IMG/VR virus record: IMGVR_UViG_3300042890_001450
Span: 1 to 25,407 of that record
DNA length: 25,407 nucleotides
Source of the DNA: a virus
Direction: 5' to 3' (one strand)
The notes beneath the pieces were generated by a model that saw only the letters and a list, made by a program, of their open reading frames with translations, was not told where the DNA came from and did no database searches. Below, in pieces: positions 10,067 to 15,070 of this stretch; position 1 is the stretch's first letter; every line of letters begins with the position of its first letter. The translations under genes and the position numbers were made by a program.

Positions 10067-10249
10067 CACATACCGGTGCCCTGTATGTGGCCACATTTCT
10101 GATACCGCGAATGCCTGTATGACTACATATAAGCAAAACCTGTAGGTCGTTGGTTCGAATCCAACCGTGCATCGGATGCACGTAGCTCAGTGGTAGAGCA
10201 ACTGGACAAAAGGTCATCCAAACTACTTGTCGCGGTGTCAGAAATGTGG
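10067..10249 (+). ncRNA. Permuted tRNA-like RNA, Y-RNA (YrlA)-like
   Basis: Strands 10091-10110 and 10230-10249 form a 20-bp helix with one G·U. Inside, GGTCAT (10212-10217) pairs with ATGACT (10119-10124). Then comes a tRNA in permuted order: anticodon-like stem 3' strand (10139-10143), variable region AGGTC, T-arm (10149-10165, loop TTCGAAT), acceptor 3' strand (10166-10172), a 3-nt cap CGG, acceptor 5' strand (10176-10182, 7 bp), TA, D-arm (10185-10199, AGTGGTA loop) and stem 5' strand (10201-10205, one T·T mismatch). There is no U33, no clear anticodon and no CCA. A 7-bp hairpin (10067-10089) precedes it. Bacterial YrlA Y RNAs are described as carrying such a tRNA mimic, which makes this the best family guess. 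A permuted functional tRNA is the alternative. No Ro60/Rsr gene is in the window. Confidence 0.7.
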
Positions 10250-10424
10250 TGAAGCTAGATAACCACACCAAGATTTGCTGATCTCATGGTAATAAGAGAC
10301 TGCCGGTGGGTTTCAGACACGTAGAATTAAAGAGCAGGTGTCGCTCGCCCACTGTTCACTTTCCCCACAACTGTGGAAACGCCGAGGGTCGAACCCTCAC
10401 TCAACAAAACAAAACAACACTGAT
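10250..10424 (+). other. Structured gene-free leader after the tRNA-like RNA
   Basis: No protein frame is credible here. Visible pairings are GTGTC (10235-10239) with GACAC (10315-10319) as an alternative to the outer helix, GTGGT with ACCAC (10246-10250 with 10262-10266), GAGC/GCTC with a 7-nt loop (about 10332-10346), CCAC-AACT-GTGG (about 10365-10376), and GAGG/CCTC closing a GTCGAAC loop (about 10384-10398) that resembles a T-arm missing one T. It ends in the leader ACAAAACAAAACAACAC before the gene at 10425. It may be the 3' part of the RNA, a 5' UTR with switching structure, or both. Confidence 0.4.
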
Positions 10425-10886
10425 ATGTCAGACCAACCCCTGCTCAACCTGTCCGTAGACATCGCCGGCCACGACGCCACCTACCCCTTGATCCCACCTG
10501 GTGATTACCCATTCACCATCAAGTCCCTCGGAGTCGATGACAACAAGGACAAGACTGGGCGTAACCTTGTGGTGGAATTCTCCACGGCGCAACCACTTAC
10601 CTCCACTCGCGGTAAGGCAATCGCCGTTGGGCACACCCTCAAGAACTTCTTCCCACTTCAAGCCACTCCCGACGCAATCGAGAAGGGCACGCCTAACAAG
10701 TGGAAAGACCGTATCTGCCTCCTCATCGACGCTGCGTTGTCGACCAACGAAAGCAACCGACCCAACCTCACCCCAGAGGTCGCTGCTGCTCTCATTGGTA
10801 AAACCCTCCTTGGCTCAGTGGCCATCGAGTCGTCTGCACAATACGGTGATCAAAACCGTCTTGGCAACGTCAAACCCTTGAGCTAA
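10425..10886 (+). CDS. SSB-like protein (DUF669-like)
   Basis: I use the ATG at 10425; earlier in-frame codons fall inside the structured RNA region. The 153-residue product opens with a strand-rich domain containing IPPGDYPFTIKSLGVDDN and TGRNLVVEFS, the pattern of the DUF669 family of phage single-strand-binding-like proteins, which accompany AAA_24/Sak4 ATPases. The rest is helical. It would coat single strands during replication or annealing. An A/C-rich leader instead of a ribosome-binding site, balanced codon use and a dedicated terminator suggest strong, separate expression, as for the gene at 5351. Confidence 0.65.
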   Translation: MSDQPLLNLSVDIAGHDATYPLIPPGDYPFTIKSLGVDDNKDKTGRNLVVEFSTAQPLTSTRGKAIAVGHTLKNFFPLQATPDAIEKGTPNKWKDRICLLIDAALSTNESNRPNLTPEVAAALIGKTLLGSVAIESSAQYGDQNRLGNVKPLS

Positions 10887-10941: not shown

Positions 10942-12540
10942 ATGACTGCAAATACTACAATCCCCTTCTCATACCCCCGCGAGGCAACTCTCGTCGAATT
11001 CTCCCTCATTCGTATCAAGGACGACCGCACCTCCTTCGAACGCTCGCGTGAAGACTTCTCACACGTCCAAGAACTAGCGGACAACATTTCCAAATATGGT
11101 CTCATCCACCCACCACTTCTCTCCGCAGAACACATCCTCGTTGCCGGTGAGTGCCGCATTCGTGCGATGCAGCTTCTCCAAACCCCACTCTTCCCCGTCC
11201 TCTACCGTGAGAACCTCACCCCATCCGAGGTCGCTGAACTCGAACTCATGGAGAACCTCAAGCGCCGCAACTTCAAGTGGCAGGAGACGGTTCTCAACAT
11301 GCGCAAGGTTCACAAACTCAAATTCTCCGAAGGTCTCACCACCGGCAAAGAGTGGCTGCAATCCGAGACCGGCGCGCTCTTCGGTTACCACCGCACCTAC
11401 GTTGGCAACGCTCTCCGCGTAGCCGACCTTATTCTCGCTGGTGACAAAGAACTCCTCGAAGCTAACGGCATCAAGGAAGCATTCGACATCCTCAAGACAC
11501 GTGCTCTTTCCCGTGCCGTCGCAGAGAAAGCCCTTCGCACCTCCCAAAGTTTGGGTCTCTCCAACCCAACGCCACTCCCGTCCTCAGGTGCATACATGAT
11601 CAACCTCGACGGCACGGCCCCGTCTTCTTTCCAACAACTCCCATCCCTTCCCGAGTCCGAGAGAACTATTCTCACTGACCTCGATGGGCCTAAAGAAGTT
11701 AGCCATGCGCCGGTGGAAAACACTGTGGACTTTAGTCAGTTGTTTATCTTTGGTGACTCGATCGAAGTCATGCGGGGTATGAGTGATAAAAGTGTTGATT
11801 GTATTGTCACCGACCCGCCTTATGGAATTGACATGGCAAATCTGGACACCAACAAGGATCTCCACCGGACGGTGAACGAACACGGTGTGGAAGAAAACCT
11901 CGAACTCCTTCCGCGGTTTCTGGAACAAGCATTCCGGGTGTTGAAAGACGACTCGTTCTGTGTGTTCTGGTATGACATGGAACATCACCAGAAGCTGGTT
12001 GACTGGGCGGAAGGGGTAGGCTTTGACGTTCAACGCTGGCCGCTGATCTGGGTGAAGACTCATCCGTGTCGTAACTCCGCACCGTTCCACAACTACACCA
12101 AAGCCACCGAGGCTGCTATGGTGTGTCGCAAAGGCAAACCCAAGTTAAAGAAACCTATGGTGAAGAACTACATCATGGCGGACGGTATGGCTGAGCGCAA
12201 GATGTATGACCATCCGTTTATTAAACCACGTGACGTGTGGAACTTTATCCTGGAAGGTGTTGCGTTTGCTGGTCAGACAATCCTTGATCCGTTCGCCGGT
12301 CAAATGTCGTGCCCGCGTGCTGTGTTGAACGCCGGTATGCGCCCACTTGCCATTGAGAAAAACCCGTATCACTTCGTGCAGGGTGTTGGTCACATGGAGA
12401 AGTTGTTCAAAGAAATGACTCTCAACAAGTGTAACATTGTCAACGATCCACGTGGTAACATCCCAGTGGAAGCGTTCCAACCTGAGCTTAAGCCAGTGCT
12501 GGATTCTATCCAAGCTGACATTGATTCCTTAATTGCGTAA
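10942..12540 (+). CDS. ParB-like domain / DNA methyltransferase fusion
   Basis: 532 aa. Residues about 10-130 are a ParB/sulfiredoxin-like domain (HVQELADNISKYGLIHPPLL; VAGECRIRAMQLL; ELMENLKRRN). A helix-turn-helix-like part follows (about 140-165, GALFGYHRTYVGNALRV). After a linker comes an S-adenosylmethionine-dependent methyltransferase with motif IV DPPYGID (291-297) before motif I DPFAG (449-453), the beta-class order. DPPY favours N6-adenine as target. Such fusions occur in phages and plasmids, where they may protect DNA or mark sites. Dyad-site copy 5 lies in the linker (about residues 239-246), and codon use switches there from C-rich to G/T-rich, suggesting that the two halves were joined. 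Confidence 0.88.
   Translation: MTANTTIPFSYPREATLVEFSLIRIKDDRTSFERSREDFSHVQELADNISKYGLIHPPLLSAEHILVAGECRIRAMQLLQTPLFPVLYRENLTPSEVAELELMENLKRRNFKWQETVLNMRKVHKLKFSEGLTTGKEWLQSETGALFGYHRTYVGNALRVADLILAGDKELLEANGIKEAFDILKTRALSRAVAEKALRTSQSLGLSNPTPLPSSGAYMINLDGTAPSSFQQLPSLPESERTILTDLDGPKEVSHAPVENTVDFSQLFIFGDSIEVMRGMSDKSVDCIVTDPPYGIDMANLDTNKDLHRTVNEHGVEENLELLPRFLEQAFRVLKDDSFCVFWYDMEHHQKLVDWAEGVGFDVQRWPLIWVKTHPCRNSAPFHNYTKATEAAMVCRKGKPKLKKPMVKNYIMADGMAERKMYDHPFIKPRDVWNFILEGVAFAGQTILDPFAGQMSCPRAVLNAGMRPLAIEKNPYHFVQGVGHMEKLFKEMTLNKCNIVNDPRGNIPVEAFQPELKPVLDSIQADIDSLIA
11655..11679. repeat. Dyad site copy 5 (25 bp)
   Basis: GTC-cga-GAGAA-cta-TTCTC-act-GAC. The outer arm differs from the consensus GTT/AAC on both sides, but in a compensatory way that keeps the symmetry, which argues for selection on the dyad rather than on the protein. 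It sits at the domain border of the ParB/methyltransferase gene. Confidence 0.85.
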
Positions 12541-12544
12541 CATC

Positions 12545-15070
12545 ATGACCTTTGACCTTAACATATCCGCTCCTCAACCAACCCGCAAATACGTCCCTAA
12601 TGAAATCCCCACTGCTGTCGCACCTTACCGCATCATGCTCCTTGGTGACATACCCGGAGAAACTGACTATGAAGCTCAGTTACCGTTCATGGGACACGCC
12701 GGACAATTGCTTTCACAGGTGCTTTCTGGGTCTGGTATCCAGCGATCTGGGTGTTATATTGCCAACGTTGTTCAATACGTCCCTGAGCGTAACAACATTG
12801 GAATGTTTCACCCGCACGGGTTTGAGTTCACTGAGTCAAGAAAGAACATTGAGCGGGAGTTAACTTCCTTCCGTCCCAACCTCGTCGTCCTTCTGGGTGA
12901 CGAGGCTTTGAAGTTTGCAGGTCACGGGGACAAGAAGGTAGCCAAGTGGCGAGGTTCAATTCTCCAATGCACTCAAGTCGGTAATCCCTTGTTCGGGCTT
13001 AAGCTCTTACCAACCTACCACCCTAGTTCAATCCTCCGGGTATGGGACGACTTGCCGTTGTTTACGTTTGACATTCGAAGGGCATTGGTGCAAGGCCAAG
13101 ACCCTGTCATCAACCGACCAAACCGACATCTTGTTACAACTTACAGTGTCGGGGACATCGTCGCCCGCTTCCAGAAACTCCGTCAAGAAGCCAAGCTTGT
13201 CACTCTCGACATTGAAGGTTACGTCTACGCGGTAAGTTGTATTGCCTTCGCCACCTCACCAACCGAAGGCTTCTGCGTCCCGTTGTTCTCTTTGAACCGT
13301 GCCGATCTCCGTATTGTCCTCCGTGCAATGTGCGAATTCCTCAAGGACCCAGACGTCCCAAAGGGTTTGCAAAACGGTATGTATGACGCCACGGTCCTCG
13401 CTCTCACCTACAACGTCCTGATCCGTAACTTCTCCCAAGACACCCTCCTCGCCTCGTGGGAGATCTACCCGGAGTTAGCCAAAGACCTGGGCACTCAAGC
13501 CTCGATTTGGACCGACGAACCCTACTACAAGTTCGAGCGCAAGACAGACGACATGGCTATCCACTACAACTACTGTGCCAAGGACGCAGCTGTGACGTTT
13601 GAAATCCTGGAAAAACAAACCAAAACCATGGACCCTGTGGCTACGGGGCATTACAACTTCAACGTTCGTATGCTACGACCCCTGCTCTACATGCAGATCA
13701 AAGGCACGCGTTTCAACGTAGACCTTGCTAAACAAATCGAAGCCGAGAACCGTGTCCGTGTCTCCGAAGTGTCTGACCGCCTCAAGCAACACGCCTGTGA
13801 CCCTAAGTTCAACCCCAACTCACACACTCAGGTTAAGAAACTCCTATACGACAAGTTCCGTCTACCCAAACAATTCAAGAAAGTCGCAGGACGCAAGACT
13901 GCTGATGTCATCTCCGACGTAAGCTCACTCCTCCAACTCCTCAAGACCTACCAACTCCCGGTCATCATCGACCTGCTTCTCTACTCCCGCCTAAACAAAC
14001 GCTCCCAATACATCAACATGAAATACGACCGGGATGGTCGAATGCGTTGTTCTTACAACGTAGTCGGTTCTGAAACCGGGCGCCTCTCCTGTTCCAAAGC
14101 TGCCAACGGCACGGGAGACAACCTCCAAACCGTTCCCCGTGACCTCCGTAAACTATTCCTCGCTGATGAAGGTTATGAATATTTCCAATGCGACCTTGCA
14201 GGCGCTGATGGTTGGACTGTTGCTGCTGAATGTGCCGCTCGTGGTGACCGACGGATGCTTGACGACTATCTCTTTGGTCTCAAACCGGCAAAGATTATAG
14301 CCCTGTTGTTTTTGTGTTCCCACTACCACCACAACGCTGACCTCGCCAAACTCAAGTTCCCACTACTCCATGAACTCGAACCTTACTTTGCTGCTAACCC
14401 ACGTAACGTCAACGACTGGTCCCGCGATCAACTCAAAGCCGCCTCCAAGTTCGTCACTGAAGACGGACCAGCAGGATGGCTTTACTTTACATGTAAGCGC
14501 ACGCAGCACGCCACAAACTACGGCACAGGGACAGACACAATGGTTGATCAAGTCTTGTTGGACAGCTACAAAGTCCTAGGCAATCCAGTCATCATTCCCA
14601 AGACCGACGCCTCAGTCCTCCAAGACCTCTACAACATTCGTTACCCCGGCGTTAAGTTCTGGCAGGACGATTGCAAATACAAACTCAAACACTCCCGAGG
14701 TTTCCCCGAACAAGTCGACGCCTCAGGTCACATCCGTAAGTTCTTCGGTCGCACCACCGACCACGCCACTTACCGTTCATGGCTCTCTCACCAACCCCAA
14801 GCAAACACAACCTATGCAACCAACCTAGCAACCGAAAAACTCTGGATGGACCCCGGCAATCGCTCTGGTCCATCTCTCACCATCCAACCACTCCACTCAG
14901 TTCACGACGCCCTTTGCGGTCAATGGCCCATTTGGTTTCGTGACCAAGCTCAACTTATGGTAAAATCCTACTTCGAAAACCCAATCACCATCGCCGGCAC
15001 AACCTTAACAATCCCCTACGACGGTGGCTACGGTCCATCTTGGGGAGAAGCAAAGACTCCATTCCAATAA
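12545..15070 (+). CDS. DNA polymerase A with N-terminal UDG-like domain
   Basis: 841 aa from the ATG at 12545. Residues about 28-180 resemble family 4/5 uracil-DNA glycosylases: GDIPGE (34-39), PFMGHAGQLL, LLGDEAL and YHPS (about 157-160). The usual Fe-S cysteines are not visible and the usual GE at the active site reads GD. Then a 3'-5' exonuclease domain (DIEG about 222-225; QNGMYDAT; YCAKDAAVTFE) and a family A polymerase: SETGRLSC, motif A CDLAGADGW (Asp550), motif B around RTQHATNYG and motif C HSVHDA (Asp788). SPO1-type phage polymerases carry a comparable UDG-like domain. It is the replicative polymerase of this phage. The gene is 4 nt from its upstream neighbour. Confidence 0.92.
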   Translation: MTFDLNISAPQPTRKYVPNEIPTAVAPYRIMLLGDIPGETDYEAQLPFMGHAGQLLSQVLSGSGIQRSGCYIANVVQYVPERNNIGMFHPHGFEFTESRKNIERELTSFRPNLVVLLGDEALKFAGHGDKKVAKWRGSILQCTQVGNPLFGLKLLPTYHPSSILRVWDDLPLFTFDIRRALVQGQDPVINRPNRHLVTTYSVGDIVARFQKLRQEAKLVTLDIEGYVYAVSCIAFATSPTEGFCVPLFSLNRADLRIVLRAMCEFLKDPDVPKGLQNGMYDATVLALTYNVLIRNFSQDTLLASWEIYPELAKDLGTQASIWTDEPYYKFERKTDDMAIHYNYCAKDAAVTFEILEKQTKTMDPVATGHYNFNVRMLRPLLYMQIKGTRFNVDLAKQIEAENRVRVSEVSDRLKQHACDPKFNPNSHTQVKKLLYDKFRLPKQFKKVAGRKTADVISDVSSLLQLLKTYQLPVIIDLLLYSRLNKRSQYINMKYDRDGRMRCSYNVVGSETGRLSCSKAANGTGDNLQTVPRDLRKLFLADEGYEYFQCDLAGADGWTVAAECAARGDRRMLDDYLFGLKPAKIIALLFLCSHYHHNADLAKLKFPLLHELEPYFAANPRNVNDWSRDQLKAASKFVTEDGPAGWLYFTCKRTQHATNYGTGTDTMVDQVLLDSYKVLGNPVIIPKTDASVLQDLYNIRYPGVKFWQDDCKYKLKHSRGFPEQVDASGHIRKFFGRTTDHATYRSWLSHQPQANTTYATNLATEKLWMDPGNRSGPSLTIQPLHSVHDALCGQWPIWFRDQAQLMVKSYFENPITIAGTTLTIPYDGGYGPSWGEAKTPFQ

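Follow-up and report, generated by a model that had tools for sequence, protein, structure and literature searches.

Bacterial Y RNAs have hardly ever been described apart from Ro60, and what they do is still little understood. In YrlA, the stem tethers the Rsr/Ro60 protein while the tRNA-like domain binds PNPase, giving RYPER (PMC8394870); DusA and TruB modify this RNA (PMC8394870), and another suggestion is that it competitively inhibits a tRNA nuclease (PMC7790460). On the viral side, TROVE proteins are found in some jumbo phages (reviewed in PMC7824862), and a Listeria phage paper (PMC12282133) both puts forward a phage-encoded pair of Rsr and Y RNA and notes, citing Chen 2014, Y RNAs in mycobacteriophages. 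Our analysis of the 25.4-kb virus record IMGVR_UViG_3300042890_001450 (hereafter ‘the window’, i.e., the whole stretch of DNA analysed) leaves hardly any doubt, as far as sequence comparison can tell, that it encodes a YrlA-type bacterial Y RNA and so adds a new, phage-borne member to that family. YrlAs of phages are already known; what is unusual here is the genomic context, the RNA occurring in a small phage as an apparent orphan. A phage possessing the RNA but apparently not Ro60 separates the two parts, and such an orphan YrlA makes it easy to test whether the virus benefits from the RNA by itself in concert with host proteins.

Bacterial YrlA (Rfam RF02553), encoded in an Rsr/Ro60 operon, and the window RNA share a permuted tRNA-like domain, a basal stem that joins the ends, an inner helix, and the GAAUGC, CUAC and CUUGUC motifs. 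In the window these elements lie on the + strand within 10091-10249, where, inside a basal helix of 20 bp, the T arm, a CGG-closed acceptor of 7 bp and the D arm follow each other in circularly permuted order, just as an earlier note on this DNA had described them. The coordinates given in that note, 10067-10249, contain the YrlA RNA but also take in a separate 7-bp hairpin (CACAUAC...GUAUGUG, 10068-10089) directly 5' of the basal helix, which does not belong to the family. The 5' strand of the basal (outer) helix (10091-10110) ends in the conserved GA of GAAUGC and pairs over 20 of 20 positions with the 3' strand (10230-10249), a strand delimited by pairing, covariation and pair probabilities; 19 of the pairs are Watson-Crick and one is G-U, an extra terminal pair is formed by G10090 and U10250, and at spacings of up to 250 nt this helix is the longest inverted repeat of the window. 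The GAAUGC motif (10109-10114), with its first G and A within the helix and its AUGC matching the Rfam YrlA consensus, lies in the internal loop of the stem and is followed by the 5' strand of the inner helix (UGUAUGAC, 10116-10123), which forms seven of eight pairs with its partner (GUCAUCCA, 10213-10220). UACA (10124-10127), invariant among the aligned phage RNAs, marks where the stem gives way to the tRNA-like domain. The subsequent linker (UAUAAGCAAAACCUGUAGGUC, 10128-10148) stands where the 3' side of the anticodon and the variable loop would be, and contains most of the insertion relative to the Rfam YrlA, which amounts to 15 nt in the Rfam alignment. The T arm (10149-10165) comprises 5 bp (GUUGG, 10149-10153; CCAAC, 10161-10165) and the loop UUCGAAU (10154-10160); the acceptor helix (10166-10182), 3' strand first, pairs CGUGCAU (10166-10172) with AUGCACG (10176-10182) at seven of seven positions around the closing loop CGG (10173-10175); and the D arm (10185-10199) consists of 4 bp (GCUC, 10185-10188; GAGC, 10196-10199) and the loop AGUGGUA, which includes the GG pair. 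Finally, CUUGUC (10226-10231), likewise part of the Rfam YrlA consensus and having an invariant GU and a nearly invariant next C, leads into the 3' strand of the basal helix. When compared with bacterial YrlA, the window RNA is distinguished by a basal helix of 20 rather than about 7 bp and by the insertion before the T arm, and it is phage-borne with no Ro60 gene nearby.

At its curated threshold Rfam does not report the window, and the YrlA match was obtained by applying an E-value threshold to the region. The Rfam model then aligns over its full length (1-114 of 114; 10104-10239) with 54.4 bits (E=1.4e-11), which bears out the resemblance to YrlA proposed earlier from the sequence, while the score falls short of the gathering score of 69, a database cut-off and not a biological trait. 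Since the score is below 69 and tandem tRNA genes reach up to 40.8 bits with the same model, we built an independent covariance model from 14 phage RNAs that come from IMG/VR contigs and share this layout, with the window excluded. This phage model assigns 97.7 bits (E=2.9e-22) to the window RNA, compared with 48.9 bits for the best tandem tRNA control; these controls are genes which made up most of the catch of an early loose DNA pattern and were reused as negatives. Bacterial YrlAs, collected by a sequence-motif search of GTDB genomes and mostly adjoining Ro60 genes, score up to 105 bits with the phage model, most of them 60-105, so that the window RNA lies within their range. Conversely, Rfam's model yields 83.9 down to 36.7 bits for the copies at eight bacterial YrlA loci, and the best copies of several Ro60-linked loci attain only 63.6-68.4 bits, indicating that the gathering cut-off of 69 is strict. 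When whole records are scored, this cut-off misses the window RNA along with every other phage YrlA scored, and phage Y RNAs are therefore probably under-annotated.

The structure of the window RNA is under constraint across its relatives. In 16 sequences, which were picked partly for pairing of the acceptor and basal helices (so that these figures are to some extent circular), the 22 tested pairs are 99.7% paired, 83 cells are changed on both sides, and the covariation score is 0.714 versus 0.186 after shuffling and no more than 0.169 when the structure is slid. Covariation in related phages, on which the earlier note had let its proposal depend, is strong in the basal, T and acceptor helices: the inner seven pairs of the basal helix are 100% paired with two-sided changes at six of seven, and all six aligned acceptor pairs covary. 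The D stem is invariant in the relatives and hence carries no covariation evidence. Two checks avoid the circularity of this selection. The inner helix, which played no role in the selection, is conserved and also covaries, as it forms 129 pairs with its own partners in 18 sequences as compared with a mean of 99.7 for swapped partners (0 of 5000 swaps as high), and 12 loci picked by sequence motif alone form 7.8 of 9 basal pairs versus 5.6, and at maximum 6.75, with swapped partners. Moreover, all 31 positions that are invariant among the relatives are kept in the window RNA, and the AAU of GAAUGC is invariant in the phage alignment. The window RNA itself folds with -79.2 kcal/mol versus -53.3 kcal/mol in shuffles (z = -6.0), and the minimum-energy fold includes the basal helix (pair probabilities of about 0.7-1.0) as well as the T arm, acceptor and D arm (0.75-1.0; T arm >0.98). 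The inner helix has a U-C mismatch in the window and is missing from this fold, forcing it costing about 5.5 kcal/mol.

RNA genes in which the acceptor 3' part precedes the 5' part are also represented by the permuted (two-piece) tmRNA gene and by the permuted tRNA genes of algae and archaea. A tmRNA was rejected, the window RNA having apparently no tag-coding domain and only 6.9 bits with the Rfam tmRNA model, for which 47 are needed. That a genuine permuted tRNA gene is processed here to a working tRNA is suggested by the canonical T, acceptor and D arms, but is extremely improbable: a U33-bearing anticodon arm and CCA are both absent, ARAGORN finds zero tRNAs in the window and Rfam makes no tRNA call, in agreement with the earlier statement that this is no ordinary tRNA, and the full-length YrlA match, which extends to the stem motifs (the basal stem with GAAUGC and CUUGUC, the inner helix and then UACA), makes a tRNA reading unlikely. 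Re-ordering the permuted halves for ARAGORN was uninformative, as the program likewise called a tRNA in 280 of 295 shuffled constructs. The probability that the structure is due to chance or is an artefact, made of the remnants of two adjacent tRNA genes, is practically nil. The YrlA model does pick up tandem tRNA genes, yet the highest score of such genes lies well below the 54.4 and 97.7 bits of the window RNA, and this explanation is further refuted by the fully complementary acceptor strands and the 20-bp helix, by the recurrence of the same RNA in a second contig, and by covariation.

The RNA lies between ORFs of 88 and 152 aa in an intergenic region of 378 nt, as a single copy amid replication genes with no tRNAs around. 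The window encodes an SF1-type helicase, a PD-(D/E)XK nuclease, an N6/N4 methylase, an ATP-dependent ligase, DUF3987, UDG plus a family A polymerase, and a Sak4-like annealing protein, and both its gene content and gene order match those of phages of 40-45 kb, among them Microcystis phage Mel-JY34 and MW202489. In Mel-JY34, a giant gene encoded on the opposite strand comes after methylase, polymerase and DUF3987 and is succeeded by the structural genes, and the same arrangement, with giant and structural genes on the opposite strand after polymerase/DUF3987, is seen at the right end of the window. This synteny implies that the window probably holds nearly the whole early region, and judging from it the unseen remainder of the genome would consist mostly of structural genes. 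Mel-JY34 and MW202489 are themselves without the YrlA RNA, which is thus not essential to this phage type. A second contig (L145/L190) with a 99% identical polymerase carries the RNA unchanged across 10067-10249, with substitutions just outside; as this sole close relative is nearly identical, the window's own lineage of phages offers no covariation. Genes shared by the window with other phage loci that carry a YrlA are limited to single weak matches, and a promoter and terminator scan found no promoter and no signal above chance. As a separate observation, UDG and polymerase are fused in one 845-aa protein (12533-15070), a uracil-DNA glycosylase domain being joined to a family A DNA polymerase, and the MW202489 match to this protein covers both parts. 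Downstream of the YrlA and before the 152-aa ORF, there is a T-arm-like hairpin with a 5-nt loop (GAGGG-UCGAA-CCCUC, 10384-10398) as well as two further hairpins; a second structured RNA at 10245-10430 was rejected, since a fold z of only -1.3 is not better than chance.

Of 62 YrlA loci of bacteria, 55 have a Ro60-like ORF in the sequence that was fetched (8 kb at most). The earlier note had advised looking for a TROVE-domain (Ro60) gene elsewhere in the genome, and that search came back empty: neither Pfam nor a profile of nine phage Ro60 proteins finds one in the window, where 10.1 kb upstream and 15.2 kb downstream of the RNA are free of Ro60, or in the near-identical second contig. A self-sufficient phage Ro60-Y RNA-PNPase machine is therefore not indicated, and although the contig is a fragment, this phage quite probably has no Ro60 of its own; the virus may then borrow that of its host. 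The window RNA can be contrasted with Ro60-linked phage YrlAs (CcrColossus, Atuin, BRock, Xanthomonas 10KY502B and, in the literature, mycobacteriophages), which have the same architecture but a Ro60/TROVE gene within a few kb, and several of which, where checked, sit in tRNA arrays. Among 39 phage records whose YrlA is strong, scoring at least 60 bits with the phage model, 23 encode a Ro60 recognized by Pfam or the nine-protein phage profile and about 16, several of them short fragments, do not detectably do so, fractions that are no census since the records were found by motif. Nevertheless, the records without Ro60 include the complete RcXuper genome (148 kb) and contigs as long as 286, 184 and 127 kb, and the link between YrlA and Ro60 is looser in phages than in bacteria. 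A 720-aa protein adjoining the YrlA of RcXuper was considered as a divergent Ro60 and rejected, there being no match. The window appears to be a clean small-genome example of an orphan phage Y RNA, and one may speculate, albeit tentatively, that phages repeatedly carry Ro60-less Y RNAs as RNA-only effectors which capture host Ro60 and its decay partner, or titrate tRNA-targeting defence enzymes.

By analogy with other YrlAs, the explanation that we regard as the probable one for the whole is that phage YrlA binds host Ro60 via its stem and an exonuclease via its tRNA mimic. The RNA would be cut from an early transcript of the + strand, with RNase III acting on the long perfect helix as a plausible candidate for this step; its tRNA-like head would be recognized by PNPase and tRNA-modifying enzymes; the stem would owe its retention to the continued binding of a Ro60/Rsr protein, which would necessarily be supplied by the host; and during infection the RNA may re-target or occupy the host Ro60-PNPase RNA-decay machinery. 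The full retention of the stem-specific invariant positions favours continued Ro60 binding, and for host Ro60 being the actual partner of the window RNA we put the chances at a little under even. Its main rival, which we consider rather unlikely, is a Ro60-independent tRNA decoy whose head titrates a host protein that binds or cleaves tRNA, for example an antiviral tRNA nuclease, and whose long helix merely protects the RNA. Such a decoy would agree with the lack of a Ro60 gene in the window and in about 16 of the YrlA-bearing phage records, complete RcXuper included, and with the lengthening of the basal helix, but GAAUGC, UACA and CUUGUC, stem motifs without a counterpart in tRNA, are fully retained, which argues against the RNA being a tRNA decoy only, and without an intact anticodon arm the RNA would lure an anticodon nuclease only poorly. 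Distinctly less probable still is a complete phage Ro60-YrlA-PNPase system with its Ro60 gene outside the sequenced part of the genome: the contig is a fragment, and the majority of phage records with a YrlA have a Ro60 gene as well, frequently close to the RNA, yet Ro60 is missing from both flanks of the RNA and the Mel-JY34 region beyond the coverage of the window consists of structural genes.

YrlA genes often occur in tandem, with up to six in Nannocystis (L336, L380) and further cases at L302, L171 and others, and several copies are found within single phage contigs. The complete 43-kb genome of Xanthomonas phage 10KY502B (L321) contains two YrlA-like RNAs, one of which overlaps an annotated tRNA-Thr, and an adjacent 439-aa Ro60 protein. 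In many YrlAs the segment from UACA to the T arm forms an anticodon-arm-like hairpin with a 7-nt loop, U33 and a purine at 37, whereas the window RNA is devoid of U33. Such hairpins are found in 22 of 99 bacterial YrlAs (e.g., L331, L390, L396, L340) and 8 of 27 viral ones (e.g., L034, L182, L223, L227), as compared with 4.5 and 1.5, respectively, in shuffles, which hints at a descent of YrlA from whole permuted tRNAs.
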